From a virus: DNA of 31,499 nt. This document shows, in pieces, positions 1 to 30,354 of the stretch. The stretch spans positions 1 through 31,499 of IMG/VR virus record IMGVR_UViG_3300049477_000226. The stretch is one strand, 5' to 3'. A program made the translations under genes and the position numbers. Position 1 is the stretch's first letter. Every line of letters starts with the position of its first letter. The notes beneath the pieces are model-generated. The model worked only from the letters and a program-made list of their open reading frames with translations, was not told where the DNA came from and ran no database searches.

Positions 1-142
1 GGTCAATGCGGTCGTCTTCGGAGTAAGCGCCAAGCTGGGTGCACTTCCGGCGAACGTGCTTGCCGCTGAAGCGGTCGGTGTAAAACAGGCACCATTCGCC
101 GCGCCAGCGCAGCAAACGGGGCGGCTTGATGTGGCCGGCCAT
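1..142 (-). CDS. int: Phage integrase (tyrosine recombinase), N-terminal part, cut by window edge
   Basis: The minus-strand frame opens with ATG at 142 and runs off the left edge, giving about 47 residues. The visible part has an aromatic core (WCLFYTDRFSGKH) and a basic stretch (VRRKCTQLG). This resembles the N-terminal arm-binding domain of phage tyrosine integrases, which begins with a reading such as W-x-x-x-Y-T-D. The catalytic R-H-R-Y residues lie outside the window, so the assignment rests on this short motif and on position: the gene starts about 175 bases from a tRNA-derived attachment core, where phage integrases usually sit. Other frames of this stretch are longer but have unnatural Arg- and His-rich composition. 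An unrelated small DNA-binding protein cannot be excluded. Confidence 0.6.
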   Translation of the reverse strand, partial: MAGHIKPPRLLRWRGEWCLFYTDRFSGKHVRRKCTQLGAYSEDDRID

Positions 143-164
143 GCTCAATCTTCCAGGTGCAAAA

Positions 165-194
165 CTTGTACATCCTGAGTACATGGGTACAAGC
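165..194. repeat. Left-arm inverted repeat, candidate integrase arm site
   Basis: CTTGTAC (165-171) and GTACAAG (187-193) form a perfect 7-base inverted repeat with a 15-base spacer, about 125-150 bases left of the tRNA core. The same GTACA word recurs as two direct copies right of the core. Short repeats on both arms of a core are typical arm-type integrase sites. This role is inferred from layout only. Confidence 0.4.
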
Positions 195-317
195 CAAAAC
201 GCAGGAATGAGGGATAAAGCGGGCAGGCACTTCGAACACCCTCGAAGCCCCAAGCCAAAGGCAACCGAAGGCAAAACGCCCAAGCGGCGCGGCTGCACGG
301 AAACATGCCCGTTCGTC

Positions 318-362
318 TTTGGGACGTAGATGCCGCAGGTTCAAATCCTGTCACCCCGACCA
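318..362 (+). other. Attachment-site core: 3' part of tRNA-Pro(UGG)
   Basis: Read on the plus strand, these 45 bases match the end of a tRNA. They give a 7-base anticodon loop TTTGGGA (318-324, anticodon TGG at 320-322), the 3' anticodon strand CGTAG, a short variable region, a T-arm (GCAGG, TTCAAAT, CCTGT), the 3' acceptor strand CACCCCG, discriminator A and an encoded CCA. The matching 5' parts are absent: no CGGGGTG acceptor strand, no D-arm, and the bases before 318 do not pair with CGTAG. It is therefore not a functional tRNA but the 3' half that integrating phages carry or duplicate. The break near the anticodon loop marks the likely crossover end. Whether this is attP or attR is discussed in the findings. 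Confidence 0.8.
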
Positions 363-366
363 GCTT

Positions 367-402
367 GAAAGCCGCTTCCAGACATCAACGGATGCGGCTT
401 TC
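367..402 (+). terminator. Hairpin just after the tRNA 3' end
   Basis: GAAAGCCGC (367-375) pairs with GCGGCTTTC (394-402), a perfect 9-base stem around an 18-base loop, starting five bases after the CCA. The 3' arm itself supplies TTTC, and a TTT follows at 408-410. Position and shape fit a tRNA transcription terminator that was captured with the tRNA end. It could instead stop transcripts arriving from the minus-strand gene at 456-1058. The loop is long and the T-run weak, so function is uncertain. Confidence 0.45.
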
Positions 403-434
403 TGGCATTTGGTGGGGGCTCTCAATGGAATCCT

Positions 435-454
435 GTACACGCTTGGGTACACGC
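435..454. repeat. Right-arm direct repeat GTACACGC x2, candidate integrase arm sites
   Basis: GTACACGC occurs at 435-442 and again at 447-454, a 12-base period of about one helical turn. It shares GTACA with the left-arm repeat. It lies about 75-90 bases right of the tRNA core. Arm-type integrase binding is an inference. The second copy ends just before the stop of the gene at 456-1058. Confidence 0.4.
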
Positions 455-455
455 A

Positions 456-1058
456 TCAGGAGCTTTTCAGGGCGGCGCGCAGCTCCTGCCCCGCGAGATA
501 GAGACGCTTGTGGTCGATCACTTTGCTGCTGGGTTCGCGCGTCAGTGTGGCCCAGGGGATCAGATCCGTGAGCTTGCGTACTGTTTCGGGTCTTGCCCTT
601 GCTGTGCCATCGTGGGCCAGGTCGCGCAGGAAGTCGGCCACGGCCGCAGGCACGGTCACGGGTTTGCCGTCGACGGTAAGGATCTGGCGCACGCCTCGAG
701 GGCCACGCGGGGGAATCACAATGCGTGGCTGCGTCACTTGCGTCACCAGCGTCACGGATTCCGGCGCCGTGACGTCGAGCTGCCGGTGGTGGGTCCAGAC
801 TGCTGCGGCGATGCGCTGCACGCTCAGACGGTCAAGGGCCACACAGAGGGCCGCCTTGATCACAGGCCCATGACCGTTGCGCGCGTGGTAGTCGCTCCAG
901 TCGGCAATCCAGCTTGCGACGTGAGGTTCAAGGTCCAGAGGTCGAGCGGCCTGGGTGGCAATAAGCGTGATGGCCTTGAGTGCGGCGATCTCGGCAACAA
1001 ACGAGGCTTCCAGACCGGCCAGATGGCGGGCCTGCTCTGCGGGACTTATTGCGTGCAT
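456..1058 (-). CDS. Unrecognised protein between attachment core and accessory cassette
   Basis: This 200-residue frame starts at ATG 1058 and reads toward the att core and integrase. I do not recognise a family. The N-terminal 110 residues look helical and Ala/Leu-rich. The middle has a Pro/Gly/Arg patch (IPPRGPRGVRQI). The C-terminus is basic and helical and ends in KSS. There are no membrane segments, no paired cysteines and no catalytic motif I can name. No strong Shine-Dalgarno precedes the ATG, so the start is uncertain. A competing plus-strand frame over the same bases has Cys/His/Arg-rich composition typical of a shadow. Position near integrase suggests a lysogeny or accessory role, which is only a guess. 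Confidence 0.6.
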   Translation of the reverse strand: MHAISPAEQARHLAGLEASFVAEIAALKAITLIATQAARPLDLEPHVASWIADWSDYHARNGHGPVIKAALCVALDRLSVQRIAAAVWTHHRQLDVTAPESVTLVTQVTQPRIVIPPRGPRGVRQILTVDGKPVTVPAAVADFLRDLAHDGTARARPETVRKLTDLIPWATLTREPSSKVIDHKRLYLAGQELRAALKSS

Positions 1059-1139
1059 GGGTATGGCTCAGGTGCCCACGCCGGTCGTGCATCTGCCCGT
1101 AGGTGTTCGGCGTGGGAGTCAGCCAGCCAGTGTATCGGG

Positions 1140-1171
1140 CCACGCGACACAGCCTGGGGTGAATCGCGTGG
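1140..1171. promoter_or_regulatory. Inverted repeat in divergent intergenic region, candidate operator
   Basis: CCACGCGA (1140-1147) and TCGCGTGG (1164-1171) form a perfect 8-base inverted repeat with a 16-base spacer, so half-sites repeat every 24 bases, about two helical turns. It sits in the gap between the minus-strand gene starting at 1058 and the plus-strand cassette starting at 1287. A dimeric repressor acting on both directions would fit. No binding protein can be named. Confidence 0.35.
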
Positions 1172-1237
1172 TAGGCAGCGTCCTCAATTTCGCCTGAGCG
1201 GGTGTGCCAACATGCAGCCGCGCGCCCTGTCGTGACC

Positions 1238-1266
1238 TTGCAACTGTTGATAACATTGTTTACAAG
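1238..1266 (+). promoter_or_regulatory. Candidate promoter for the plus-strand accessory cassette
   Basis: TTGCAA (1238-1243) is followed after exactly 17 bases by TACAAG (1261-1266), four of six matches to each of the -35 and -10 consensus boxes. The stretch is clearly more AT-rich than its surroundings. Transcription would start near 1273, just upstream of the GAGGA ribosome site of the gene at 1287. The match is modest. Confidence 0.4.
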
Positions 1267-1286
1267 TGGCGCAAACGAGGACGCCG

Positions 1287-1544
1287 ATGGCAGATCAAGT
1301 AATCAAAGTGATGTGGCAAGGGAAGGAAGTCGAGGCAGAAATTGTACCTATCGGTGAAATGAAGGAAACCGTTCAGACTTACATTCTGAAGGACGGTTCG
1401 GTACTGAACGTGAGATTGGTGGTCATGCAGGTTGCACGTCTGAAACATGAGCACAACGAACAGGGCGACCCAGTTTACGTGATGAAAACACAAACCGCGG
1501 CTTCGGCAGTTGTCCCTGAGAACCTAAAAAAGAAGAAGTCATGA
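1287..1544 (+). CDS. Small basic-tailed protein, first gene of accessory cassette
   Basis: This is an 85-residue protein of unknown family. I chose ATG 1287 over the upstream GTG at 1266 because GAGGA sits five bases before it. The first 55 residues alternate charged and hydrophobic positions, suggesting a small beta-rich domain (VIKVMWQGKEVEAEIV and YILKDGSVLNVRLVV). The end is Lys-rich (KKKKS). There is no signal peptide. Its stop overlaps the next start in an ATGA, so the two are translationally coupled. Its place upstream of a PemK/MazF-like gene makes an antitoxin or partner role possible, but it does not look like a known AbrB, ribbon-helix-helix or Phd antitoxin. Confidence 0.7.
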   Translation: MADQVIKVMWQGKEVEAEIVPIGEMKETVQTYILKDGSVLNVRLVVMQVARLKHEHNEQGDPVYVMKTQTAASAVVPENLKKKKS

Positions 1545-1873
1545 TTGTCGAATGGGCTGTTACGGCGACGGTGATTTGCGCAACGACGCTAGGTGGCTGG
1601 CAGGCGTGCGATGGGGAGTTTGTGTCAACGCAGAAAGAAACGACCGCTGTGATTCGCCGCGTCGAATCTACCCGATTGATGAGTTCGTGTGCCGAATTGC
1701 CGGGTACGAACGAGTCGTTCACCGCCAGCACCTTGGTGACGTCTGGCCAAGACGATGAAGCGCAAGCCCGCTGGGTCCAGGAGAATGATGAGCGGTTCAA
1801 GATCTTTGAAGCGCTAGAGTCTGCTCCAGAAGAGGCACGAAAGCGCTTTGTCAGTCGGCGCAGGCCTGCCTAA
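1541..1873 (+). CDS. Small protein with hydrophobic N-terminus, second gene of cassette
   Basis: This 110-residue protein starts at ATG 1541 inside the stop of the preceding gene. The first 20-25 residues are hydrophobic (EWAVTATVICATTLGGW) and could be a signal or a single membrane segment, although no basic residues precede them. A cysteine at about residue 23 follows without a clear lipobox. The C-terminal third is charged and helical (QARWVQENDERFKIFEAL). No family is recognised. It lies between the cassette's first gene and a PemK/MazF-like gene 17 bases downstream, so it probably works with or is regulated alongside them. The start is fixed by the overlap. Confidence 0.6.
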   Translation: MIVEWAVTATVICATTLGGWQACDGEFVSTQKETTAVIRRVESTRLMSSCAELPGTNESFTASTLVTSGQDDEAQARWVQENDERFKIFEALESAPEEARKRFVSRRRPA

Positions 1874-1890
1874 TCGAGTCGGACTCCGAC

Positions 1891-2229
1891 ATGCTTTCAC
1901 TTACCAGAGGCGACGTTTATTGGATGAACGTCCCGTACATCCTGCCCCCGAGCGAGGAAACGAAATCGGAGTGTCGCCCGGTGATAATTTTGGCGCACAA
2001 TGGCACCGACATCATTGCCGGCATGATCACGACCCAAGACTACACAGATCGTGGCGCGATCAAGATTACCCCAGAAGACTACCTAATGGGCGGGACCACG
2101 AAGATACATTTTTTCCGTCCAGAACGGCTGCATTGCGACCACGTAGAATGGCTGGAAGAGCACATTGGCAGAGTGAGGAATCCGAAACTTCAAGAGTGCT
2201 TCGGTGCGCTTCACAAGCTGTTTTCCTGA
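1891..2229 (+). CDS. PemK/MazF-like protein, possible toxin
   Basis: This is a 112-residue protein. It begins with RGDVYWMNVPY, continues with CRPVIIL near residue 30 and IIAGMITTQDY near residue 42, and ends in an RV-x-x-x-KLQE-x-x-x-ALHKLF helix. This is the order seen in PemK/MazF (PF02452): an RGD-V start, an RPV-I strand, a variable T-T-containing strand and a terminal KL-x-x-AL helix. Members are usually about 110 residues and are mostly mRNA-cutting toxins. The insert after residue 13 is unusual. No standard antitoxin lies next to it; the two upstream cassette genes are the only candidates. It could therefore be a PemK-fold protein without toxin activity. Confidence 0.65.
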   Translation: MLSLTRGDVYWMNVPYILPPSEETKSECRPVIILAHNGTDIIAGMITTQDYTDRGAIKITPEDYLMGGTTKIHFFRPERLHCDHVEWLEEHIGRVRNPKLQECFGALHKLFS

Positions 2230-2384
2230 TCTTTCCGCCGTTCCCGTCCGCCACATTCATCGATCGCTGTGATCCCCGCCCGATGGTGGGCCAGCGCCCC
2301 ATAAACAGCAGCGCCCCAACTCTACGGTTAGAGCGTCACTGTGGCGCACGCAACAAGTCGGGGGAAATGCTGCGTCTCCCGCGC
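2230..2384. other. Intergenic gap between converging transcription units
   Basis: This 155-base gap separates the end of the plus-strand cassette from the end of the leftward late operon. A converging gap would be expected to hold a terminator. I see only short imperfect GC inverted repeats and no stem followed by a T-run, and no credible gene. Confidence 0.5.
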
Positions 2385-3107
2385 CTACGTCGTGATTTGG
2401 AAGGATGTCATGTCTACAGCCGCGCCACCTAGCGCCTGCGATGCAAAGTGACTGAAGCCCGAGTACCCACCCAGCACAAGCCGCCCCGCGTCAGTATCGT
2501 CGATGGTCGCCACGGTCGAACCGTTAATTTTGACCACCACCCTGATCCTGTCTGCCATGGTTGTAGCGGTCACCACCACGTCAGCCGGCGTCGTCGCGTC
2601 AAGGCCAGTGCAAGTGAAAGCAGCGCCGACAGCCGCATAGGCCCCGTTGTCGGAGCGATAGAGCTGACCAGCCGCGCCCACGCCGGCCGGAATGAGATCG
2701 AGACGATAGCCCTTGTCGCCCGCACCAAGCCCTGATCCGTCGTAGTCGGTTTGGTCCTTTGTCGTGTGCCGAAACAGCAGAGACGCCAGGTTGAGCCCGT
2801 CCACCATGCCAAAGAGCAGGCCGCCAATGGTGTAGGTGTTTGTCGCATCGTTCTCCACGATGGCAGCGCCGTAGGCCGTGAATCGGCCCGATAGGGCGCC
2901 GCTGAAGCGCCGACACACGGCCTTGCCAGCAACCGTGGTGTTCACGTCGCTGGTGCCGGTGCGGGTTTTTTGCGTCCAGAGTGTTGCGTCCAGACTCGGA
3001 TCGGACGCGGTTCCGCTGAACGTGTCCGAGAAGACAACGACCGCGCCGCCGCTCCCGTTGGCGCTGCGCGCGAAGCCAAAACCTGGTCCGAATCGAAAAA
3101 ATGCCAT
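2385..3107 (-). CDS. Tail-end lectin-like (LamG-type) protein, last gene of late operon
   Basis: This is about 240 residues from ATG 3107, chosen because AAGGGG lies six bases upstream; the longer frame adds seven unlikely residues. The chain is rich in Gly, Ala, Thr and Asp with alternating hydrophobics. It has the look of a concanavalin/LamG-type beta sandwich: a DTF-x-G start near residue 30, an LW-x-Q element, an RLDLIPAGVG strand, a VVVKINGSTVATIDDTDAG strand and an SGF-x-H-F end. Such folds occur in virion surface proteins that bind sugars. It is the last structural gene, next to other adhesin-like genes, so a role in host recognition is plausible. The family is inferred from pattern only. 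Confidence 0.6.
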   Translation of the reverse strand: MAFFRFGPGFGFARSANGSGGAVVVFSDTFSGTASDPSLDATLWTQKTRTGTSDVNTTVAGKAVCRRFSGALSGRFTAYGAAIVENDATNTYTIGGLLFGMVDGLNLASLLFRHTTKDQTDYDGSGLGAGDKGYRLDLIPAGVGAAGQLYRSDNGAYAAVGAAFTCTGLDATTPADVVVTATTMADRIRVVVKINGSTVATIDDTDAGRLVLGGYSGFSHFASQALGGAAVDMTSFQITT

Positions 3108-3148
3108 GTGTTCCCCTTGACGTGTCAAGTCCGCCAGTATCAGCCACC

Positions 3149-4354
3149 CTATAAATCCGCGTCCGCCGAGAAATGGATTGCAATCAGGTCGCCTACAGCC
3201 GTTGCCGCCACACCCGTTGAGTTGGTGTAGAAGTTTCGCGCCGTGCCGCTCGTTATCGTGGTCGCGCCCATGTCAGCCGCGCCGGTGATGTTGCGTGCAA
3301 GCGCGTTTGCCGCCGCTGGGTTGAACACCGTTACCGTTGGCGTTGCGCGCATCGGCACAACGTAGTCAACCAGGATGAATCCAGAGTTGGCCACAGCGCC
3401 AGCCTTGCCAGCCACGCCGCGTCGCTCGCCCGTTCCAGCACCCGCATTGGTCACGGGGACCGTGCCGGGAAGAAATGATTTCTGATAGAAGCGTTGCATG
3501 CGCAACCATTCGTCGGCGCTATTCGGCGGGCTCCATGCCTGTACAGCTTCGTCCAGCGTCAGCGAGATTTCCGCCGCAGAGAAACCAGCCGCCACGGCCA
3601 CCTGGTTGTTGCTCCAGATGAACACCACGAGATTCTTGCAGTTCGTCGGCACGGTAAACACGCCGCCGAATTGCTGCCAGCTTGTCGTGAGGGTCGCACG
3701 GTAAGCGTTTGTCTGCGACGTTACATTGTCACCCGTCTTGCCGCTCGTGGGCGCGATGTAGGCGAGGTTCGTCCCAAGCGTCGGGTCAACGCCGTTCGCG
3801 CCCGCCGCCGTGGTGAACAGCGACGCGCCTAACGGAATCGTGTCGAGTGTTCCGGCACTCGTTAGCTGAACCAGCGCGATGTTGTAATCGGCTCCAACCG
3901 TGGCCTTCATCTTGAGTTGCAGTCGCACGTTACGCCCGCGAAGCTGGCAGGCGTCTGAGCCTTCAATCGCCTGTGTGAAGCCATGTTTGCCCAGCGCGGT
4001 CGTTTTCAGGTGCGTGGCGTAGTAGCGGGAAATCAGGCCCGATTCCACGGCACCGCTCGAATCAACCTGCGTCACGCTCTGGCCGTTGTTCTCTGCCCAC
4101 TGTGCCCAGCCATCGAGCGTGAACTGCCGCCCCATGATGGTTGTATAGGTCGTGGCCGCCGCCGTTTGGCGTTGACGGAACTCAAAGCCTGCGTTGCGCA
4201 GCCAATTGAACTGAGAATCGCCGGACAACACGTTGATGATGCCTCGGTCGTCCTTGGTCATCGGCTTGCGAGTGGTCGTGTCTTCGTAGGCAATCAACTT
4301 GTCAGTTGCGGGAGTGCTCGGTTCCGCAGACTTACTAAATGTCAGGTAGCTCAT
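3149..4354 (-). CDS. Tail fibre / receptor-binding-like protein with carbohydrate-binding-type domain
   Basis: This is a 401-residue protein that starts two bases after the stop of the long fibre gene upstream. The N-terminal 35 residues look like a virion anchor. At about residue 48 the motif NWLRNAGFEFRQRQT appears, followed by a DGWAQW element. This resembles the NGGFEFWQRG...ADRW signature in many phage tail proteins with a carbohydrate-binding-module-like jelly-roll. The C-terminal 130 residues (near PTVTVFNPAAANA) form a repetitive Ala/Thr/Gly-rich tip typical of trimeric fibre ends. No enzyme motif is visible, so binding is more likely than cleavage. It is probably part of the adsorption apparatus. 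Confidence 0.65.
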   Translation of the reverse strand: MSYLTFSKSAEPSTPATDKLIAYEDTTTRKPMTKDDRGIINVLSGDSQFNWLRNAGFEFRQRQTAAATTYTTIMGRQFTLDGWAQWAENNGQSVTQVDSSGAVESGLISRYYATHLKTTALGKHGFTQAIEGSDACQLRGRNVRLQLKMKATVGADYNIALVQLTSAGTLDTIPLGASLFTTAAGANGVDPTLGTNLAYIAPTSGKTGDNVTSQTNAYRATLTTSWQQFGGVFTVPTNCKNLVVFIWSNNQVAVAAGFSAAEISLTLDEAVQAWSPPNSADEWLRMQRFYQKSFLPGTVPVTNAGAGTGERRGVAGKAGAVANSGFILVDYVVPMRATPTVTVFNPAAANALARNITGAADMGATTITSGTARNFYTNSTGVAATAVGDLIAIHFSADADL

Positions 4355-4356
4355 GG

Positions 4357-7266
4357 TTATCCAATCTCCAAGTCGGCACCAGCGCCGATCTCCAATGTGA
4401 GGCCTGCGCCGACTTCGATGTAGCGCGCAATGTACGCCGCATATCCGGCCGTGACCGTGAAGTTTGCGGCGAGGACGTGCTGATTCAGCGCCAGCGCCGA
4501 ACTACCGCCAGCCGCAACCCAGCCGCCATCCTTGCGCCCATAGGTAGTGCCGTCGCTCGGCGCGTCCGTGAACGTCGCCACGGCGGGCATGTCGATTCGC
4601 ATCACGTCAACGTAAGTTTCAGCCGCGCCCAGGTAGATCGTGCAATTCGCGCCTGAGTTGAAGAATATTTCCAGGTAATCCGTGGTCCCGTTCATATCCA
4701 CGGTCGAATCAACCACGCTGCCCGAGCGACCGCCGCCAGCCTCGCCGCTCGCGCCACGGGCATACTCGCTGCCGTTTTTGTGGATGATGATCACGGGGTT
4801 GTCGGTAGCCAGAACTGCGTTCGACCGCGACCGCGCGGAAATCTGGTACTTGCCAGCTTCCAACGGCGTGTAGCGGTAATTCGTGGTCGAGTCAAACCAG
4901 CTTTCCGTGTCGAACGTTTCCGCGTTGAACTGGATTTTAGCGGGGCTGCCCGTGGTGTAGGCCTGGTCTGCGCCTGACAGGTAGGCACGCGCAGCGCCGA
5001 TTACTCCGCCGCCTGCGCCGCCACCGCCCGCCGTGTCAAACATGCACCAGCGCGATAGTGTGGTGTCATAGTAGATCGTCGCGCCCGAATGGTCCTCTAG
5101 CGTGTAATCGCCAGATTCCGGGCAATAAAACCGATTCGCTGCCGTGCTGGTCGCGTCATGGCTGATCGTGACTGCCGCGCCGCTGTGGTTCACAAGCCAT
5201 ATCACACGCTTGCGGGCGGGCACAGGCGCATCAATGCCCGTCAACGTGGTTCCGCTGGTGATCCTGACGACGGTCGCAAGCGGGGCGCTGACGTTGTTGC
5301 CGGCCGCGACGTTCGTTGAATTGTTCAGCGTGATTTCGTTTTCCGGCGTCAGATGATGATAGATGCGCAGGGCCGCACCGCTGGCGTTTAGCGTTTGCTC
5401 CGCGCCCGTTGAATCGGTTGGCACGATTTCATAGTCAGGGTCAGTTGTCAGACCCGCGCCCGCATAGGTCAGCTTGTGCAGCGCGCCGCTGGCTGGCTTA
5501 TTCGTCGTCGGGTACAGGTGGCCAAGGCCAAACACCGTCTCAACGATCTTCGCGGTGCTCACGGTTTTGTAATTCAGCAGCACGAAGCTGGCCGAGGGAG
5601 TGTAAGCCGCCGGCAATCGCTCGCCATGCCGCGACTTGTAGGCCATGTGCGCTTCGAGCGCCCCAGGCATGATGACCTCAGACGTTTTGCCGTAGCCGCG
5701 CTCACCATACCAGCGACCATCGGGCCCAGCGCGCATCGATGGGGCAACGTCAAATTGGGTAGGCCAGCGCAGCGCGCCCGTCGTCAGCACAGGCGCCGTG
5801 CCCAAATATTGCGGCAGCATGACGTGGTGCGGCCCGCGCGGGGTCGTCAGGAAATCATATTCGTCAAAGCCGAATGCGCCGCGCCAGCTCTCGGTAGTGC
5901 CATCAGGGAATCCCGTGCCGGTCGGTGGGTCAATCGCGTTGGGTCGAACCGCGCCACGCCAGCCTGGAAACTCTTCCTCGTGCGGGCCTGTCAATGTCGG
6001 GTGTACGCCCGTGATCGGCAGCGTCAACGCAGCGCGCGTAGCCGCCTCGCGGCCCCTCGCAATAGCGAAGTTTGAACTTGCCCCGCCATCGCCGCTCCCG
6101 CCACCACCCGAACCGCCCCCGCCAGTTTCAGGACCCTTGCCATAACCAATGGGCAAAGGGCTCGGATGCGGCAACGCGGGGTAGTTTTGCTTGTCGGCCG
6201 TGGTCAGCCATTTCTTAGTGCCAGGGACTTTTATGCCGCACCCGTTGAAGTGAAACGCTTTGAAATCTTCGCGGAGTTCAACGGGGCGGAAGTAGGTGCC
6301 CATCGTGCCGGGGTGGTACGGGTTTGGGTTGAAGTCCAACGGGCTAAACAGCGTTCCCGTCAAAGCAGTTTCAAACCAGACGCCCGCAAGATTCTTCCCG
6401 CTCGGCAGGCCAAACAGCGCGCGGCTAAGGTCAATGCCCGCTGAGTAGACTGGCTTGCCGCCCACTGTTGACGCCAGCCTGTGATTCGCGGCCACTGTAT
6501 CGACGGCGGGGCAGAGCGGCCCGTTGACCTCATCGGACGCGCATGCTTCTGAGTTTTCAAAATGCAGAGGCCCATAGGACGGCGTGCCGTCGCCATTGCG
6601 CGTGAAATTTAGGATCGGCGCGTAGTGTGTCGCAGGCCCAGTGACCGGCCCGGACTGGTATTGAGGCAACACCGTGCCGCCTGGAATGCCTGGGGGCAAT
6701 GCGCTGCAAAACGCTCGCGGGAACGGTGTCAGATAAAGCGCATAATGCAGTTTTCCATGAACGTTGCCGTCGAGCTCGCCCTTGGCATTGACGTCGAAGA
6801 CCTCCGCGCTTTGGACGGGCGGGGTCAGGCCGCGATGATGCGCAACAAGCGGGCTGGACAGGAGCACCACGGGTTCGCCGTTCGCATGGCCAGTGGTGTT
6901 GATCAACACGCCCTTGCCACTGCCAAGCACCTTGGCCTTGACGGTCAGAAAGTCCTTGTCCTCGTCGACAGCGGTTTCAAGCGGGCGCCATCCAGTAGGC
7001 GTGGCAACAACAGGGACGGCAAATGTCCAACTGCCGGCTGAACCGCGCGGCGCCATCCGCGCGGGGTCAGACATCAGAATCAGCCCGTTGGCGGGGTCTG
7101 AAGGCGTCGATATTTCAAAGTTGGCGCGGCCCGTGTTAGCTGGTCCAAACACGATCGCTGCGCCGCCCATGGCCTCGCCGCGCCGCTTCTTGTCCAGCGA
7201 CTTGTCGGCTACCAGCCCGAAAAACCCGGACTTGGCAGGCGTCATCAGATCAAATGGCGTGCTCAT
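4357..7266 (-). CDS. Large tail fibre / tail-tip protein with Gly-Ser linker and C1q-like domain
   Basis: This 969-residue protein is the longest in the window. Residues 1-378 form a mixed domain of unknown type. At about 380-397 a Gly-Ser linker (GGGGSGGGGSGDGG) separates it from a second unknown domain at about 400-740. At about 753-890 lies a beta-rich domain whose order (YTPLEAGKYQI, NPVIIIHKNGSEYARG, DYLEIFFNSG, TIYLGAAETYVDVMRI) resembles the C1q/TNF-like jelly-roll found at fibre ends. A phage-fibre motif follows (TFTDAPSDGTTYGRKDGGWV), then a short tail with repeated EIGAGADLEIG. It overlaps the previous gene by four bases. It is probably the main fibre joining tail tip to receptor binding. 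The C1q-like call is by eye. Confidence 0.65.
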   Translation of the reverse strand: MSTPFDLMTPAKSGFFGLVADKSLDKKRRGEAMGGAAIVFGPANTGRANFEISTPSDPANGLILMSDPARMAPRGSAGSWTFAVPVVATPTGWRPLETAVDEDKDFLTVKAKVLGSGKGVLINTTGHANGEPVVLLSSPLVAHHRGLTPPVQSAEVFDVNAKGELDGNVHGKLHYALYLTPFPRAFCSALPPGIPGGTVLPQYQSGPVTGPATHYAPILNFTRNGDGTPSYGPLHFENSEACASDEVNGPLCPAVDTVAANHRLASTVGGKPVYSAGIDLSRALFGLPSGKNLAGVWFETALTGTLFSPLDFNPNPYHPGTMGTYFRPVELREDFKAFHFNGCGIKVPGTKKWLTTADKQNYPALPHPSPLPIGYGKGPETGGGGSGGGGSGDGGASSNFAIARGREAATRAALTLPITGVHPTLTGPHEEEFPGWRGAVRPNAIDPPTGTGFPDGTTESWRGAFGFDEYDFLTTPRGPHHVMLPQYLGTAPVLTTGALRWPTQFDVAPSMRAGPDGRWYGERGYGKTSEVIMPGALEAHMAYKSRHGERLPAAYTPSASFVLLNYKTVSTAKIVETVFGLGHLYPTTNKPASGALHKLTYAGAGLTTDPDYEIVPTDSTGAEQTLNASGAALRIYHHLTPENEITLNNSTNVAAGNNVSAPLATVVRITSGTTLTGIDAPVPARKRVIWLVNHSGAAVTISHDATSTAANRFYCPESGDYTLEDHSGATIYYDTTLSRWCMFDTAGGGGAGGGVIGAARAYLSGADQAYTTGSPAKIQFNAETFDTESWFDSTTNYRYTPLEAGKYQISARSRSNAVLATDNPVIIIHKNGSEYARGASGEAGGGRSGSVVDSTVDMNGTTDYLEIFFNSGANCTIYLGAAETYVDVMRIDMPAVATFTDAPSDGTTYGRKDGGWVAAGGSSALALNQHVLAANFTVTAGYAAYIARYIEVGAGLTLEIGAGADLEIG

Positions 7267-20260: not shown

Positions 20261-20518
20261 CTAAACTTTGGGCGTCAACTTCTCGGCGCTTTTCCAGTCC
20301 CACACGTGCACGCCGCCTTTTTCATCGCGGCCCGCCACGCGGTTGCCGATCAGGCTCATTTCCTGGATCTCGACTGTGTGCGTGACCGTGGCTGCGTTGC
20401 TTTTGTCGGCGGCGAGTTTGTTGCCGTCGGTCGTGACGACTTCGAGCTCGCGCTTGCCTTTGGCGGTGCGGCGCACGATTTCGATGACTTCAACCTTGTC
20501 GCCGATCTTGATGTTCAT
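20261..20518 (-). CDS. Small beta-rich protein between portal and protease genes
   Basis: This is an 85-residue protein, ATG overlapping the portal-MuF stop in an ATGA. It is beta-rich with a KIGDKVEVIEIV start and a VEIQEMSLIGNRVAG middle, ending in WDWKSAEKLTP. This suggests a small SH3/OB-like barrel. No family is recognised. Coupling to portal on one side and protease/scaffold on the other suggests a role in head assembly. Confidence 0.55.
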   Translation of the reverse strand: MNIKIGDKVEVIEIVRRTAKGKRELEVVTTDGNKLAADKSNAATVTHTVEIQEMSLIGNRVAGRDEKGGVHVWDWKSAEKLTPKV

Positions 20519-22896
20519 GCTCCGTACTCCCCAAAGGGCTGGAAGAACGCCAGTGCACCTGGCTCGGCGCTGCGGATGGCGTTCACACGCTGGTCAAGCT
20601 CGCCCACACTCACGGCCTCGCCTTCATCTTTGGCGATCGGCACCGTAGTGCAGCGGCAGTTGTGGTCGTAGGGCGGCTGGGGTGCGTCGATGGGCAGCAC
20701 CGTGCCGTGCAGGGCCGCGTGGCTCGGGCGCACGGCGTCATCGCCTGCGGTTTCGTAGCGCAGGCCCGCGATGAAGGGGGCTGCCTGCTTGGCCTGCTGC
20801 TGCTGACCCGCGTTGTAGGAACGGTTCACGTTGTTGCGGAACACCGTCTCGGCGTAGGCCTCGCCTGCATCGGGCACGTTGGTCTTGAACCACTTGCCGA
20901 ACTCGCTGATGCCGCCTTCGCCTTCGCGCAGGAAGATATCCAGCTTGATTTTGACTTCCGCCAGCAAGCCTTCCTCGATCACGTGCGCGGCCGCGAACTG
21001 GTGGCGCGCGTAAGCCTGGGCGACTTGCTGCGCTGCCGTGGCTGCGCCGGCTTCACCCACGATGGGGGCGAGGGTGCGTGTGCTGAAATCGGCGATCGCT
21101 TCGTTGAAGGGCAGCTTCACGCTTGTTTCAAACACGAGCGTGGGGCTTTGCGAGCCCGCGTCGAGACGGATGCCCTTTGTCTTGAGTGAACGCGCCATGC
21201 GCGCGCGGCCTGCGATGTCGCCGAGCGCTTTGACTTTCGCGATTTCGTTGGCGAGGGTGACGGGGAAGGCCGGGTGCGTGCCTTCGCTCCAGCCGCTTGC
21301 GACGGCCTGCTCGTACTTGGTGAACTCGGGGGCGAGGCGCTCTTGGCTCAGTGCCACGAGCTGCGCTGATTCCGTGAGCTGGCGCGGCTTCTTGGCGAGC
21401 TTCGCGCGGGCTGCCACACGCTTGGGGGCTGGCTTGTTGTCGCGTTCTTCATCTTCGCCCACAAGTCCATCGCCATCGCGCATCGCCGATTCCTCATCGG
21501 GCGTCATGCCGAACGGGCTGGGCTGTACGGCGGGTTCGAGTGTGTCTTCGAGGCCGTCAGGGCGCGGGGCCTGGCGCTGCTCGTAATACCACTCGGTATC
21601 GAGCACGTCGTCTTTGCGCATCTGCGCCAGCACGTCGGGGCTGATGCGGCTGGCCTCGGACGGTGGTTCAAGCGTGAGCCAGGGCTGGCGCTCGCCGGGC
21701 TTGAGCTTGGGCACGGGCACGCCCATGCGCTCGTTTTCGGCGATGATGAAGGGGTTGGCGTCGTCGGTGAGCGTTTCGCCCAGATCCGCGCACACGCAGG
21801 CCACGGCCAGCGCTTCTTCGCCGATGTGTCCTGCGGTGTTGCCGCGCTCGGTGTCGGCTACGTTGGAGCTGAGCACGTTATCGAGCACGAGCTTGTGGGC
21901 TTCGAACGCGAGATGCTCGCGGCGTTCGCGGCTCATCTGGTGGCCCGCGATATTGGGCTTGAGCGCCTCGACAAGCGCCTCGGGCGGCAGGTTGACCACG
22001 CCCATGCGGCCCTGCATCGTCGCGAGTTTTTCCGCGTCGCTTGAGCGAATGCTCGATATCTGGTCGGCGCGCGCGTTGCCGTTGGACTTGCGCAGCAAGA
22101 GTGTGCCGATGGCCTGGCGGTCGTGGATCAGTTCCCAGTTCTTTTCGGCGCGCTGGTCCGCGATCGCGATATTCAACAAGGCCCATGCAAGCTCGGTGTC
22201 GCCCTCGGGGTTACTGCCGCCGCCGGGGCGGTAGGCCACGAAGCGATTGCGCGGCATCGGCTGGGTCTTGCGCTGCTCTTCGGTGACGCTGCGCGAGGTG
22301 GCGTACTCGGTTTCTTTGACAATCTGGCCGTCTGCCGTGGGGCTGAGCACGCCGCCAGCCTTGGCCTTGAGACGGCCGCAGCGGCGGAAATCGAATGCCG
22401 CAATGTCGCCCGCCCACACACTCTTGAGCAGCGAATAGCGCAGGCCCTCAGCGCCGTGCGCCCAGGCCAGCCAGCGCAGGATGCTCGCCACACCCTTGGA
22501 GTTGTCCCAGCACTTCTGCAAGAAGGGCACAAGCTCGCTGCCCTCGTCACCATTGACCACCACGCGGCGCGAGCCCACCTGCTTGGCGAGCTTGTTGATG
22601 GGCTGCAACGTGGCGGGCGTGGTGCGGATGATTCTGTAGGCGTCGGCGTTGAGGTCGTCGGGCACAGCGTCGTGCCACTCGGGTGCGCCGCCAGCGAGGT
22701 AGTTGTCGCGCACCGGCAATTCGGGGGCGAGCTCGCTTTGTGTCGGTTTGCGCTTCGGCTCCGTCACGGGCGGCTTGCTGTCTGGCGCTTGCACATCTTC
22801 TGCGGCGAGGCGGGAATTGCCCCAGGGCAGGGCGTTGCGCACGCCAAGCGTGATGCGTTGGATCAACGAGGGTTTGGGAGCAAGCGCTGCATCCAT
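20515..22896 (-). CDS. Portal protein fused to MuF-type head-morphogenesis domain
   Basis: This is a 793-residue protein. I start it at ATG 22896 (MDAALAPKPSLIQ); a TTG at 22953 would add 19 residues, and neither start has a strong ribosome site. The first 420 residues have the features of Mu gp29-like portals (DUF935): an early LNADAYRIIRTTPAT region, FRYGRLK-like basic patches, ELAWALLNIAIADQRAEKNWELIHD and ERREHLAFEAHKLVLDNVL. From about residue 640 the chain becomes MuF/SPP1-gp7-like: AETVFRNNVNRSYNAG, then VRPSHAALHG and PPYDHNCRC, the typical Cys/His ending. In Mu these are two genes (29 and 30); here they are one chain. The portal forms the DNA entry ring, and MuF acts inside the head. 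Confidence 0.7.
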   Translation of the reverse strand: MDAALAPKPSLIQRITLGVRNALPWGNSRLAAEDVQAPDSKPPVTEPKRKPTQSELAPELPVRDNYLAGGAPEWHDAVPDDLNADAYRIIRTTPATLQPINKLAKQVGSRRVVVNGDEGSELVPFLQKCWDNSKGVASILRWLAWAHGAEGLRYSLLKSVWAGDIAAFDFRRCGRLKAKAGGVLSPTADGQIVKETEYATSRSVTEEQRKTQPMPRNRFVAYRPGGGSNPEGDTELAWALLNIAIADQRAEKNWELIHDRQAIGTLLLRKSNGNARADQISSIRSSDAEKLATMQGRMGVVNLPPEALVEALKPNIAGHQMSRERREHLAFEAHKLVLDNVLSSNVADTERGNTAGHIGEEALAVACVCADLGETLTDDANPFIIAENERMGVPVPKLKPGERQPWLTLEPPSEASRISPDVLAQMRKDDVLDTEWYYEQRQAPRPDGLEDTLEPAVQPSPFGMTPDEESAMRDGDGLVGEDEERDNKPAPKRVAARAKLAKKPRQLTESAQLVALSQERLAPEFTKYEQAVASGWSEGTHPAFPVTLANEIAKVKALGDIAGRARMARSLKTKGIRLDAGSQSPTLVFETSVKLPFNEAIADFSTRTLAPIVGEAGAATAAQQVAQAYARHQFAAAHVIEEGLLAEVKIKLDIFLREGEGGISEFGKWFKTNVPDAGEAYAETVFRNNVNRSYNAGQQQQAKQAAPFIAGLRYETAGDDAVRPSHAALHGTVLPIDAPQPPYDHNCRCTTVPIAKDEGEAVSVGELDQRVNAIRSAEPGALAFFQPFGEYGA

Positions 22897-22945
22897 GCGC
22901 ACACAAGTAGCGCAAAGTTTTTCGGTTGACAAACAACGAACCCTT

Positions 22946-22974
22946 TTGCGCAAGTACGTTAGAGGCCGTATGAT
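22946..22974 (+). promoter_or_regulatory. Candidate promoter for the plus-strand helix-turn-helix cassette
   Basis: TATGAT (22969-22974), five of six to the -10 consensus, lies 17 bases after TTGCGC (22946-22951), a poor -35 with only the TTG matching. Transcription would start near 22981, followed by TAGGAG about eight bases before ATG 23004. The region is the only stretch within the head module where genes diverge. Confidence 0.4.
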
Positions 22975-23399: not shown

Positions 23400-24896
23400 C
23401 TACCAGTTGAGGCCCGCGAGATTGTCGCGCAGGCCTTGCCAGGCGTCGCCGCCTTCGTTGGCGAGCGTGAGTGCGAGCGCATCGGCGAAGTCGGGGCTTT
23501 TCACGCCGCGCCGCCTGAGTGAATCCTTGCTTTCTATGGCGAGTTTGCCGGTGCTCGTGACCAGGTAGCGCGGCAGGCTCAGTTGCTGCGCCAGCTCCGT
23601 TGCATCGGGCGGCAGGCTGATGCAGTCTTCGAGCTTGTGCGCACCTGTGTGCTGGGCATTCTCGTGGGTTTTCCTGAAGCGCTCTCGCAGCTTCCACCAA
23701 ATTTCGGCTTTCAGGTTCGCGAACTTCTCTTCGCTGGTGCGGCCGTCGGGCCACACGTTGCCCGATGCGGGCTCCCCTACGTTGATGCCGATGGCGGGTG
23801 CGTTGGTATGCTTGAGGGTGCTGGCCACGCCTGCGCCGATGCCCACGCTGTCAAAGTAGAACTGGCTTGCGCCCGAGGCGTTCAAGAGCAAGAGCGCGCG
23901 CTGCGCAGTCGCCGTGGTGTCGCCGTCGCCCCAGGCGTTCATGTTTTCGACCACGGGGCCAAAGCGGCACAGGAACACGCTCTTGTCGCGGCCTCCGCCC
24001 ACATCCAGCGCAGCCACGCCCTGCTTGCCGCGCGGGGCTCTGTAGCCGATGGCGGACTGCACCCACGCGCCGGGGATCACGATGTCCTCTAAACTCGCCG
24101 TGTAATCGATGTCGATTTCCTGCGCCACGATAATCGGGTCGAGTGTGGCTTTCTGCTTGGCGTACCAGGCCTCGCCTTTGCGCGGGTCGTCGCGCCAGTG
24201 GAACGTGAACACGGGCACGACTCCGCCGTGGCGCTTGCGGTAGAACGGGTTGCCCGTGCCGTTTGGAGTGCTCACGTCGATCTTGCAATCCGTGTTCTGG
24301 CTCAACGCAGCCTCGATGCGCTCGGGCCTTTCGTAGAACGCGCTCTCGTCTTTGAAATAGATCGAGTTGCGGCCGCCGCGCCCGATCTGGTCGCCCGCTT
24401 CGCCTGTGATCGTGGCGCCATTGTGCGGGTTCACGATCTTTAGATAGCCTGCGTGCTCGTCGAGTTTGAAGCCTTGCGGCAGCATGTGCGGCGGCAGGTT
24501 GCGCAGCAAAATTCGCAGCTTCTCGAAGATGCTGTCAGGGTCGCCCAGGCGGTCCACGAGCAATTCTTTGCGCGAGCCGAAGCCGACTTTCGCGCCTTCA
24601 CGATACAGCCAAAGCCAGGCGGCGAAGCCGACGCACAGCCACGTAACGCCCATGTCGCGGGTCTTTTCCACGAGGCCGTCTTCGTGGCCGTCGAATCGGG
24701 CCTGCAACCAGCGGATGAATTGGTCCTGGCGCGCGAAGAGCCTGAACGGAATCAGCGCCGGCGAGCGGCGCGGGTCGTAGGTTTTGCAGAACTCGTTTAT
24801 AAAAAACGCCGGGTCGCGGCGCGCGAGCTCGGCCTTGACGTCACGTCTGGTTATTTGTGGCAGCGTCGTCAACGAGCAGGCTCCGCAACACGTCAA
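23400..24896 (-). CDS. terL: Terminase large subunit
   Basis: This 498-residue protein is the packaging motor: ATPase plus nuclease. The Walker A-type loop is KTRDMGVTW (78-86), with the lysine at the front, as in lambda gpA and Mu gp28-like terminases, and not GKT. Walker B with catalytic glutamate is SIYFKDES (Asp183, Glu184), followed by the coupling motif DVSTPNGTGNPF near 207. The RNase H-like nuclease shows Asp298 (ALDVGGG), Asp349 (FYFDSVG) and Asp469/Asp472 (SPDFADAL). The length is usual. Its ATG at 24896 overlaps the small-subunit gene by 56 bases; an alternative TTG lies eight codons in. The gene ends face to face with a plus-strand cassette. Confidence 0.88.
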   Translation of the reverse strand: MTCCGACSLTTLPQITRRDVKAELARRDPAFFINEFCKTYDPRRSPALIPFRLFARQDQFIRWLQARFDGHEDGLVEKTRDMGVTWLCVGFAAWLWLYREGAKVGFGSRKELLVDRLGDPDSIFEKLRILLRNLPPHMLPQGFKLDEHAGYLKIVNPHNGATITGEAGDQIGRGGRNSIYFKDESAFYERPERIEAALSQNTDCKIDVSTPNGTGNPFYRKRHGGVVPVFTFHWRDDPRKGEAWYAKQKATLDPIIVAQEIDIDYTASLEDIVIPGAWVQSAIGYRAPRGKQGVAALDVGGGRDKSVFLCRFGPVVENMNAWGDGDTTATAQRALLLLNASGASQFYFDSVGIGAGVASTLKHTNAPAIGINVGEPASGNVWPDGRTSEEKFANLKAEIWWKLRERFRKTHENAQHTGAHKLEDCISLPPDATELAQQLSLPRYLVTSTGKLAIESKDSLRRRGVKSPDFADALALTLANEGGDAWQGLRDNLAGLNW

Positions 24897-25302
24897 TGGG
24901 CACGCCGCTCAAGTCTACTTTGCTTTCGGTCTGGATTGGCGCACCGTCCGGCCCGCTGTGCTCGTTGCGCGTGAGCTCGCCGTACTTGCGCGGCTTGAGT
25001 TTGGCAGCCACCCACTTGCGGGCGTCCACACGCAGGCGCCCGAGCTGCGGGTCCGCTGCCGCGTCGGCTATATCGATGATCTCTTCGGCCAGGGCGTCAG
25101 CCTGGTCCTCGCGCGCGCGCGCGTACTGGGCACGAAATTCCGGCTTGTCGCGCAGCCAACGCCTGACTGTTTCGTGACTTGGGAAACAGTTGCGGCGGCA
25201 GATTGATTTCAGGGAGTAGCCGTTGGCGAGAAGTCGACACAGCCTATCGGCCAGCCTTCGGCTGAACACGCTCGGGCGGCCCTGTTTGCGGCGCTGCCTC
25301 AT
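24841..25302 (-). CDS. terS: Terminase small subunit
   Basis: This is a 153-residue protein and the first gene of the late operon. A basic N-terminus (RQRRKQGRP) precedes a helix-turn-helix at about residues 25-52 (LLANGYSLKSICRRN, SHETVRRWLRDKPEF). A helical oligomerisation region follows (QYARAREDQADALAEEIIDIAD) and the VDARKWVAAKLKPRKYGE motif typical of this terminase family. It recognises the packaging site and loads the large subunit. The C-terminal 19 codons overlap terL in another frame, so their expression is coupled. GAGGT lies 11 bases upstream of the ATG. A promoter-like TTGACA lies about 60 bases upstream. Confidence 0.82.
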   Translation of the reverse strand: MRQRRKQGRPSVFSRRLADRLCRLLANGYSLKSICRRNCFPSHETVRRWLRDKPEFRAQYARAREDQADALAEEIIDIADAAADPQLGRLRVDARKWVAAKLKPRKYGELTRNEHSGPDGAPIQTESKVDLSGVPIDVLRSLLVDDAATNNQT

Positions 25303-26956: not shown

Positions 26957-27427
26957 TTATTCCTCGAATATGAGTAGCGCCACAATGGCGTACTCTCTGT
27001 CGGCGTTCGTTTTCTCAGCGACCACGCGCCTGATTCTGCAATCATCAATCCCAGCGCCTTCGCAGACGGCATCCTCAAGCAGCTTGATCCTGTTGCTGGC
27101 GTCAAAGCGGCGCACAGGGCCATTTTTGTAGTGGAGCGGCACAAACAACCTGATCGAAAGCTGAAACCACACGGGCATTTTATACGTCGCCAGGTGCTCA
27201 AACATTTCGCGTACTTGTTTCTTGTACGCCCTGCCCTCAGCGCTCAGAACGCGCCTGCCCCGCACGGTCGCGTATGCATGATTGACGCTCGGCGGCATTG
27301 TGACCTCAACGCTCCAACCGCCGAACGGTAGACCACCCACACGCGCGGCCTCCTTGATCCTGACCGCGCACGCAGCATCGCCTGCTTTGCGGAACTCGGA
27401 CGCTGTGATTGCGATGGGCTTGCTCAA
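26957..27427 (-). CDS. rusA: RusA-type Holliday-junction resolvase
   Basis: This is a 156-residue protein. I place its start at TTG 27427, which overlaps the preceding stop as TTGA with AGCGGAGA about nine bases upstream; the longer ATG-type frame has no support. The RusA core is clear: VTMPPSVNHAYATVRGRRVLS near residue 42, RLFVPLHYKNG, then RRFDASNRIKLLEDAVCEGAGIDDCRIRRV, with the metal-binding aspartates (FDASN, LEDA and GIDD) in their usual places. RusA cuts four-way junctions made in replication or recombination. Compared with minimal RusA it has about 35 extra N-terminal residues (ITASEFRKAGD). Confidence 0.8.
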   Translation of the reverse strand: MSKPIAITASEFRKAGDAACAVRIKEAARVGGLPFGGWSVEVTMPPSVNHAYATVRGRRVLSAEGRAYKKQVREMFEHLATYKMPVWFQLSIRLFVPLHYKNGPVRRFDASNRIKLLEDAVCEGAGIDDCRIRRVVAEKTNADREYAIVALLIFEE

Positions 27428-27636
27428 GAAATTATCTCCGCTGTGATGCCCTCGCCCACGAGCGGGAAACAAATGTATATGTGGCCCAACCAAAGTGACG
27501 GGCCAGACCCGCACGGGCCGTTGCCAATCTGGTTGGCTACCCCCTCAAAGGTCGAGCCTGTCACGTCAACGATCCTCACGCGCGACTCGTACAATTTCAC
27601 CGTGCGCAGAAATTTTACCGCTTCGTCGCGTGTCAT
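27424..27636 (-). CDS. Small unknown phage protein
   Basis: This is a 70-residue protein from ATG 27636, where GAGAGG lies six or seven bases upstream; the longer frame would add 27 residues over a 21-codon ORF. It opens with a short helix (TRDEAVKFLRTVKLY) and continues with strands (RVRIVDVTGSTFEGVANQI, PSLWLGHIYICFPL). The family is unknown. It overlaps RusA by four bases and may be co-translated. Confidence 0.6.
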   Translation of the reverse strand: MTRDEAVKFLRTVKLYESRVRIVDVTGSTFEGVANQIGNGPCGSGPSLWLGHIYICFPLVGEGITAEIIS

Positions 27637-27638
27637 TT

Positions 27639-27704
27639 TTACCCTCTCAGAAGTTTCAACGCGGCCTTGATCGCGGGGTTGAGCGTCGCCTGGTCTTGGG
27701 TCAT
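27639..27704 (-). CDS. Tiny ORF between helicase loader and small protein
   Basis: This is a 21-codon frame (MTQDQATLNPAIKAALKLLRG). Its ATG overlaps the helicase-loader stop as ATGA, and it ends two bases before the next ATG at 27636. It would encode one short amphipathic helix. It fills what would otherwise be a gap in a tightly coupled operon. It could be a real microprotein or just a way to carry ribosomes to the next gene. Confidence 0.35.
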   Translation of the reverse strand: MTQDQATLNPAIKAALKLLRG

Positions 27705-28420
27705 GTGCATATGGCACCCTGTTTGAGCCGGTAGTCCTGCATGCCTGCGAAATCCACGTAGCGCAGCGCTGACAGCCTCGATGCCCAGGCGTCGTCTGCG
27801 TAATGCGTCAGCAGCCCCTTGAAGTCGCGATTGCTCGTAACAAGTGCGAAGACGCAATTCTCAAGCGCACAATCCAGCAGGTCGAACAGCAACGCGCGGG
27901 CATCAGGCCGATCAGGGCGAAACGGCTCACGCCCAAGATCGTCGATGATCATCACGCGGCAGGCCTTGATTTCGTCCAGCATCTCACTGGCGTGCCGCTT
28001 GCCCTTGACCTGGTAGGCGTCTGCCGCTTCCCGCCACACCTCGGCGGCTTTGAACCTCACCACGCGGCCCCAGCCGTCCCAGCCTGCTCGCTTGGCCAGG
28101 TTGTCAACGATGGCGGTCTTGCCCGTGCCTGCCGGGCCCGCCAGCAGAACGCCACGTTCGCCCGTAGTCTTGGCATCGACGGCGGTTTGCAGCCGCTTGG
28201 CCTGTTCGCGGTCGAAGGGGTTTGCCAGGGCCTGCTCGCGGTCAGCCAGGTACTTGCGCTGCCGCATCTCAAGCTCTGCCTGTTCGCGGTCTTGACGATG
28301 CCGGATTGCGTCCAGCAGCGCCTGACTTGGCACCGCGTGAACCTTGGTGGCCGGCTTCGCTGGCCGTGTGGCCAGGTCAGCAGCGGCCCTTGCTCGCAGT
28401 TGTTCAAGCTCTTGGTGCAT
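27701..28420 (-). CDS. DnaC/IstB-like helicase loader (AAA+ ATPase)
   Basis: This is a 239-residue protein. It has Walker A GPAGTGKT (95-102), Walker B VMIIDDLG (156-163), a sensor TSN (195-197) and an arginine-finger candidate SRL near 215. This is the standard order in phage DnaC-like loaders. The N-terminal 70 residues are helical and charged, as in the helicase-binding domain. It loads the host or phage replicative helicase. It overlaps the replication-protein gene by 17 bases, so the pair forms an initiator-loader unit like lambda O-P. Confidence 0.82.
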   Translation of the reverse strand: MHQELEQLRARAAADLATRPAKPATKVHAVPSQALLDAIRHRQDREQAELEMRQRKYLADREQALANPFDREQAKRLQTAVDAKTTGERGVLLAGPAGTGKTAIVDNLAKRAGWDGWGRVVRFKAAEVWREAADAYQVKGKRHASEMLDEIKACRVMIIDDLGREPFRPDRPDARALLFDLLDCALENCVFALVTSNRDFKGLLTHYADDAWASRLSALRYVDFAGMQDYRLKQGAICT

Positions 28421-29264
28421 AGTATCCCTCGGGTCGCTTGAATGGCTGGCTCACAGGCTCTGGCTGCGCGCCACGGTCAAACGTGCGGCAGGCTTCGCTG
28501 TCAAACTCAGGGCCAAAACGTGTCATCCAGTTGAACGGCTTCCAAACCCATCGGCGCTCGGACTTAGGCGCGGCCATCACGGCTTTGGCCAAGTCATCGC
28601 GCGCCGCCAGGCATTTCGCCCGCTGGTCGGCCGTGTAACTCGCCCACAGGTGCTCTGCCTCAGTCTCGAAGCCTTTGTTAGGGCATTCGGGATAGCCGGC
28701 CAGGAACGCCGCTCTGAAGTTCGGGACCGGCGCAGGCGCAATTTCTTCGCGCGCACGCGGTAGTTGCATTTGCTTTAAGTCTTCTCTTCTCTTCTCTTCT
28801 CTGTCGTCACGCGTTACGTCACGCGTTACGTCACGCGTAACGGGGTTGTGACGCTCACGGTACCGTCTTTGGCGATCCGCCCCGCGTGTGTCGGCTGGAG
28901 AGTTGAACTCTGCGAAGTTGGGAAGTGTCACGCCTTTCGGATCATTGGACTCACGCGCCCAGCCCACTTCGGCCATTGCAGCGCCGAAGCCGGGAATCTG
29001 AGCAATCGCATCCAAGCCCCCCAGGGATAGACCCTTCAAAACCCCGTCACGAGCCACCTCATTCGCAGACCCCCACACGCGGATCAAACCGCTTACGACG
29101 ACAGCGCAAGCAACCTGCACAGTTACGACTTCTAAAAACGCCCCGCCAAAACCCGTGGTCAACGGATGCAACAGGCCCCGTTGCCGGCCAAGGTGCTCCG
29201 CCATCGCAACCACCTTCGGATTGCTCAGGAGCCCGACCCGCAATCTGATCCACTCGTTAGCCAT
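28404..29264 (-). CDS. Phage replication protein (DnaD/DnaT-like)
   Basis: This is a 286-residue protein from ATG 29264, with GGAG eight bases upstream; the longer frame begins with an unlikely Arg-rich leader. It opens WIRLRVGLLSNPKVVAMA, the start of a common phage replication-protein family with a winged-helix N-terminus. A basic charged linker (about 130-165: RQRRYRERHN, then three VTRD repeats, then REEKRRED) divides it from a C-terminal domain carrying FRAAFLAGYPECPNKGF and WVWKPFNWM. It probably binds the origin and hands over to the helicase loader encoded next. The coding repeat is also a possible origin (see separate entry). Confidence 0.72.
   Translation of the reverse strand: MANEWIRLRVGLLSNPKVVAMAEHLGRQRGLLHPLTTGFGGAFLEVVTVQVACAVVVSGLIRVWGSANEVARDGVLKGLSLGGLDAIAQIPGFGAAMAEVGWARESNDPKGVTLPNFAEFNSPADTRGADRQRRYRERHNPVTRDVTRDVTRDDREEKRREDLKQMQLPRAREEIAPAPVPNFRAAFLAGYPECPNKGFETEAEHLWASYTADQRAKCLAARDDLAKAVMAAPKSERRWVWKPFNWMTRFGPEFDSEACRTFDRGAQPEPVSQPFKRPEGYYAPRA
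28781..28800. repeat. Purine-pyrimidine tract: CTTCT x4
   Basis: Four tandem CTTCT units lie inside the replication gene, just beyond the 12-base repeats. The other strand is GA-rich. Such tracts next to iterons can be melting or protein-binding parts of an origin. It also encodes the EEKRRED stretch, so coding bias is an alternative. Confidence 0.4.
28806..28841. repeat. Three 12-base direct repeats, candidate phage origin iterons
   Basis: GTCACGCGTTAC occurs at 28806-28817 and 28818-28829, and as GTCACGCGTAAC at 28830-28841. Each unit centres on the palindrome ACGCGT. They lie in the middle of the replication-protein gene, where lambda has its iterons in gene O. A pyrimidine tract follows. 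They also spell three VTRD tetrapeptides in a basic linker, so protein-level repetition is the rival explanation. Confidence 0.45.
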
Positions 29265-29320
29265 CGTTACAACTCCATTCGCGCGGGAACCTGCGCCCGC
29301 GCCCGCATTACCTCGCACAC

Positions 29321-30202: not shown

Positions 30203-30354
30203 TATTCATCCTCCAGCTCGGCCAGATCGGCAACGCTGGCGATTTCGCGGGCGACCTGGTGATCAACGCAGTCTTTGCATTCAGAGTTTGGGCCGAAACT
30301 TCCACACGTCGGGCAGGGGCCGCGCGACGGTTCTGGTGGTTTGCTATCCGGCAT
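30202..30354 (-). CDS. 50-residue Cys-rich (zinc-knuckle-like) protein
   Basis: This 50-residue protein starts at ATG 30354. It overlaps the DUF5131-like gene's end by 11 bases, and its stop overlaps the next start (TAATG). CPTC (near residue 14) and CKDC (near 27) make a zinc-ribbon pattern, followed by an acidic helix (REIASVADLAELEDE). It is missing from larger predictions because of its size. It lies between DUF5131-like and PAPS-reductase-like genes, so it may be a small partner of either. Confidence 0.6.
   Translation of the reverse strand: MPDSKPPEPSRGPCPTCGSFGPNSECKDCVDHQVAREIASVADLAELEDE

Follow-up and report, generated by a model that had tools for sequence, protein, structure and literature searches.

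Positions 143–455 of the window, which is the entire IMG/VR contig IMGVR_UViG_3300049477_000226 (1–31,499), probably constitute the entire attP of a tailed, temperate phage that most likely infects a member of the planctomycete order to which the MAG SJ383 belongs; the probability that we assign to this reading is roughly 0.78. The predicted attP is composed of a P arm (143–317), a core of 45–49 bp with the sequence of the tRNA-Pro(UGG) 3′ half, and a P′ arm (363–455). An earlier note on this DNA had likewise suggested an intact attP instead of the end of a prophage, and that proposal is supported by the positions of four arm sites, which match those at the attR and attL sites of integrated relatives.

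The core (318–362, + strand; TTTGGGACG...CCCCGACCA) extends from the anticodon loop to the CCA end of tRNA-Pro(UGG). ARAGORN detected no complete tRNA in the window, and this result and the sequence itself agree with the earlier description of 318–362 as the 3′ part of a tRNA-Pro that lacks its 5′ half. The exact 45-mer occurs only once among 84,980 species genomes, namely in the Planctomycetota MAG SJ383, where the site is a complete tRNA-Pro(UGG); the bacterial gene ending in the core that the note had suggested looking for is thus present in this genome. Identity between the window and SJ383 covers 318–366 (49/49), reaching the end of the tRNA, as in an attP that targets a tRNA gene, and continuing 4 bp past the CCA; it stops on both sides, and the two sequences are dissimilar beyond 366. 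The 3′ strand of the anticodon stem in the window, CGTAG, is complementary to the CTACG of SJ383; in G004 and G012, both of this order, the stem consists of CCACG and CGTGG. Since the core equals the 3′ half of the SJ383 gene and the stem strands pair, integration is predicted from the sequence to restore a tRNA, in line with the complete tRNAs found at the attL sites of relatives. Among viral contigs, the search for the core turned up only L002, a phage that is unrelated and has an entire tRNA-Pro gene. Whole tRNA-Pro genes are often found in phages, as in L002, and the fragment might accordingly be the decayed remnant of a tRNA gene that the phage encoded or captured, without any function in integration; however, it begins exactly at the anticodon loop, like the cores of integrated relatives, and the integrase and the P and P′ arms lie at conserved distances from it, so that this origin is extremely improbable.

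To the left of the core, the gene that starts at position 142 (2–142, − strand) and is cut by the contig end encodes a tyrosine-family integrase, as judged from its homologues. The fragment comprises the N-terminal 47 codons and ends before the catalytic residues appear; from M1 onward it shows 40–52% identity to ORFs of about 421–439 aa that carry PF00589, and the domain evidence is that of these homologues. The homology derives from genome searches, and the 47-aa fragment alone gave nothing useful against Pfam, PHROGs, NCBIfam, or PDB. The alignment of PF00589-bearing homologues from M1 onward shows that the integrase start placed left of the core by the earlier note is real. Among 294 Planctomycetota genomes, the best matches to the fragment were found in the 17-genome order of SJ383, and its relatives reside mainly there. 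A match in L043 was discarded, as it covers 11 residues, and no phage relatives of the integrase family or of the protein encoded at 456–1058 were confirmed in IMG/VR. Terminase similarity had hinted at a betaproteobacterial host, but this was dropped, because the core, the integrase, and an accessory protein all point to one planctomycete order. This uncultured order is therefore the most likely host group, and the assignment is given as probable because the integrase and accessory protein searches covered Planctomycetota rather than other phyla, whereas the core search covered the 84,980 species genomes.

Elements of the same integrase family that reside in tRNA genes serve as an independent, natural source of attL and attR sites with which the window can be compared. 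The relatives show a consistent pattern, in which the tRNA 3′ half adjoining the integrase is truncated and the intact gene is found at another place. G003 has its truncated integrase-side core at 583169 and a complete tRNA-Gly(CCC) at 614535, 31.4 kb away on the same contig; in G007 and G012, a tRNA-Lys or tRNA-Arg core without a 5′ half precedes the integrase and the complete tRNA is on a different contig. In the window, GTAC sites are found in the P arm, between the integrase start and the core, at 168, 179, and 187 (150, 139, and 131 bp before the core), and in the P′ arm at 435 and 447 (+72 and +84 after the core). A P pair at about −150/−139 is present on the integrase side (attR) in G003, G010, G007, G012, and G013, and a P′ pair at about +72/+84 past the CCA on the restored-tRNA side in G003, G007, G012, G013, and G011; in the first four of the latter, these offsets belong to attL sites. 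When about 31,200 window positions were scanned as pseudo-cores, all four forward-strand sites were recovered only at the real core ±1; the reverse strand gave two matches, which appear to reuse the same four GTAC sites through near-symmetry. The densest cluster of GTACA within the contig is likewise the core region, and both arms have TGGGTACA[A/C]GC in common. The P repeats (GTACATC, GTACATG, and GTACAAG) differ from those of P′ (GTACACG), a divergence greater than in G003 or G010. Because the four GTAC sites lie at the attR and attL offsets of the relatives, it is well supported that both flanks of the core, which differ from SJ383 on either side, are element DNA and that the putative attP is complete with its P and P′ arms.

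The same positions bear on an alternative raised by the earlier note, in which the core would be the attR of a single prophage on its left and the DNA from 363 onward would be that of the host. In favor of this, a hairpin comes after the core, a position often taken by host terminators, and the identity to SJ383 extends four bases past the CCA. Nevertheless, the offsets of the P′ pair are exactly +72/+84, phage tail genes lie beyond it, SJ383 has no similarity beyond 366, and related loci in G017 have this P′ arm, or part of the 456–1058 gene, beside restored tRNAs. Neither host DNA nor a tRNA 5′ half, one of which should occupy one side of a single prophage end, was found, and both arms are element-like. 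Host DNA from 363 onward is in effect ruled out by the match of the four arm-site positions, and hardly any likelihood is left to this arrangement.

The terminator-like hairpin just past the core (367–402, + strand) is real, with a folding energy of −24.8 kcal/mol (z −2.9), but its use as a sign of host DNA does not hold, since hairpins are also present in the P′ arms of relatives; folding of these arms revealed one by the core in eight, and SJ383 has no hairpin of comparable strength at the equivalent place. These comparisons support assigning the hairpin to the P′ side and point to its being element-borne. After a complete tRNA-Pro(UGG) in G017 (L167, G017:C10:35646) come GCCTGAAAGCCGC, where the window has GCTTGAAAGCCGC, and GTAC sites at +72/+84; the 13 bp after this tRNA resemble window positions 363–375, and homology to the sister genome G016 breaks off at the tRNA end. 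A second tRNA-Pro core was sought in G017 and not found, and this P′ arm is therefore read as the scar of a lost element. Beyond the P′ arm of the window lies a gene for a 200-aa protein of unknown function (456–1058, − strand), the 3′ end of which faces the arm. Matches to this protein among 392 Planctomycetota genomes were found mainly in G012 and G017, the two best both being in the order of SJ383, and behind a tRNA-Val in G017 come, in the same order as in the window, a hairpin, a GTAC site, and the final codons of a homologue of this gene. The scar past the complete tRNA-Val (L103:9500–9781, G017:C42) lies directly beside an amine-oxidase-like gene.

The remainder of the contig is that of a tailed phage. 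The accessory genes (456–2229) include two small ORFs with no convincing family match (1266–1544 and 1541–1873, + strand) that precede a MazF/PemK-like toxin gene (1891–2229, + strand; PF02452, E 2.4e-5; phrog_1936); no antitoxin was identified in this region (1266–2229). The late operon of tail and structural genes (2385–24896, − strand) ends at 2385, so that it does end to the right of the core after an accessory cassette, as described previously. It contains the large terminase (23400–24896, − strand) and a single 812-aa protein in which portal and Mu-F-like head morphogenesis domains are apparently fused (20515–22953, − strand). An Sf6-like small terminase (24841–25302, − strand; PF20901, phrog_1482) comes next, and the right contig end is occupied by early and replication genes (26957–31318, − strand), encoding RusA, a DnaC-like ATPase, a replication initiator, and a DUF5131 protein. 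The initiator gene contains repeats of CACGCGTTACGT at 28806–28842, which are possible iterons of a phage origin, and the gene at 29321–30202 contains an in-frame 15-bp repeat, cttcgtcgaacttgg, at 29855–29897. Positions 1–6000 showed no DNA similarity to known phages, and neither a close relative of the whole phage nor a chromosome carrying it was found.

The earlier note had explained the intact attP by either a free or circular genome or tandem prophages. The source record is a whole contig of 31,499 bp, linear in IMG/VR and without a circular mark; its ends show neither an overlap nor a direct terminal repeat and have no 12-mer in common, so that the ends lend no support to a circular genome. 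A second core at the other contig end, which would have told against an attP, was looked for and is absent, the core being present once within the 31.5 kb. With respect to tandem prophages, attP-like junctions do exist in chromosomes of this order. The core of the window might likewise join two elements in tandem at one tRNA-Pro, the integrase on the left coming from one of them (a different phage, a second copy, or an island) and everything from the P′ arm through the accessory to the tail genes from the other. Tandem arrays in this order are demonstrated by G010, in which three tRNA-Gly(CCC) cores (G010:C2:460109, 493179, and 519766) are spaced 33.1 and 26.6 kb apart and form attP-like junctions inside the chromosome. 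The layout of the window has an exact chromosomal analogue in G013, where a core lacking the 5′ half lies between P sites at 152/141 and P′ sites at 71/83, and further cores that lack the 5′ half and have a P′ pair are found in G005, G010, and G011 (attP-like junction loci: L128, G013:C74:713; L120, G005; L140, G011); the non-identical P and P′ repeats of the window are compatible with such a junction as well. On the other hand, both window arms contain TGGGTACA[A/C]GC and fit one integrase family, the genomes searched showed no tandem at tRNA-Pro(UGG), and a second element would be needed. No further core copy, as at a tandem junction, was found within the 31.5 kb, a length that is possibly too short to include one. 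Because the layout of an attP and that of a tandem junction are identical, the contig alone does not separate them; non-integrated phage DNA is favored because a single element suffices and no tandem is seen at this tRNA, and a tandem origin is regarded as unlikely.

Under the favored reading of a complete attP, the integrase encoded from position 142 would bind the GTAC arm sites and recombine the core with the host tRNA gene. The host 5′ half and the phage core would then form a restored tRNA-Pro on the accessory and tail side, where the phage hairpin at 367–402 may serve as its terminator, and the displaced host 3′ half would come to lie beside the P arm and the integrase start. The P-arm sites are located 20–50 bp upstream of the integrase start, which makes autorepression by the integrase probable, as with IntS of KplE1. 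The simplest meaning of an intact attP without host DNA would be that the contig derives from non-integrated phage DNA.

The integrase family is not confined to the phage. The G003 island (L130–L131, G003:C2:582500–616000), which is 31.4 kb long and is inserted in tRNA-Gly, has the same integrase family and carries type III restriction-modification and DrmD-like genes. It is thus rather likely that one integrase family of this uncultured planctomycete order is common to a tailed phage and to defence islands, retaining a fixed arm spacing (−150/−139 and +72/+84) and a hairpin of its own while the core has been switched among tRNA genes (Pro, Gly, Lys, and Arg, and probably Val), i.e., one att architecture with many targets and tandem arrays. 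An environmental phage contig gains a probable host order in the Planctomycetota, and a full predicted attP with its integrase start is now given for these bacteria; a literature search on temperate phages of Planctomycetota found little. The use of the same integration system by a phage and a defence island bears on how such islands spread and stack. Although the mechanism itself is ordinary, the machinery shared by a virus and the defence islands of one order is the wider point.

In the arrangement of tail genes, accessory region, attP, and integrase, and in having a core flanked by two arms, the window resembles lambda, and the comparison with circular lambda drawn in the earlier note is sound as to gene order but not as to integrase orientation. 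The lambda integrase ends toward attP and the lambda core is not in a tRNA, whereas in the window the 5′ end of the integrase gene, not its 3′ end, faces the core. The integrases of Magia and IFTN9 run against the late genes, unlike that of the window, which starts at attP. Closer parallels are provided by the mycobacteriophages Boilgate (tRNA-Lys) and Omega (tRNA-Leu), which have attP tRNA cores of 43–44 bp that cover the tRNA 3′ half and restore a functional tRNA at attL; in Boilgate, arm-type sites also surround the core, and attP is intergenic and upstream of the integrase gene (PMC10865867). The attP of the window belongs to this general kind, although the host phylum, the integrase, and the arm sequences are different and binding and recombination in the window are predicted from sequence. 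In the intS/attL region of KplE1, the integrase promoter region similarly overlaps an attachment arm, and arm sites close upstream of the integrase start go with autorepression, which is thus predicted for the window; the KplE1 integrase adjoins the argW tRNA at attL, whereas that of the window adjoins the displaced 3′ half (PMC2951348). Finally, the tRNA-borne genomic islands cataloged by Islander have ends marked by a regenerated tRNA and a displaced fragment and occur in tandem arrays, as in the system described here; the window differs in that it is a phage, with genes for terminase, portal, and tail, and shows an un-integrated configuration (PMC4383910).
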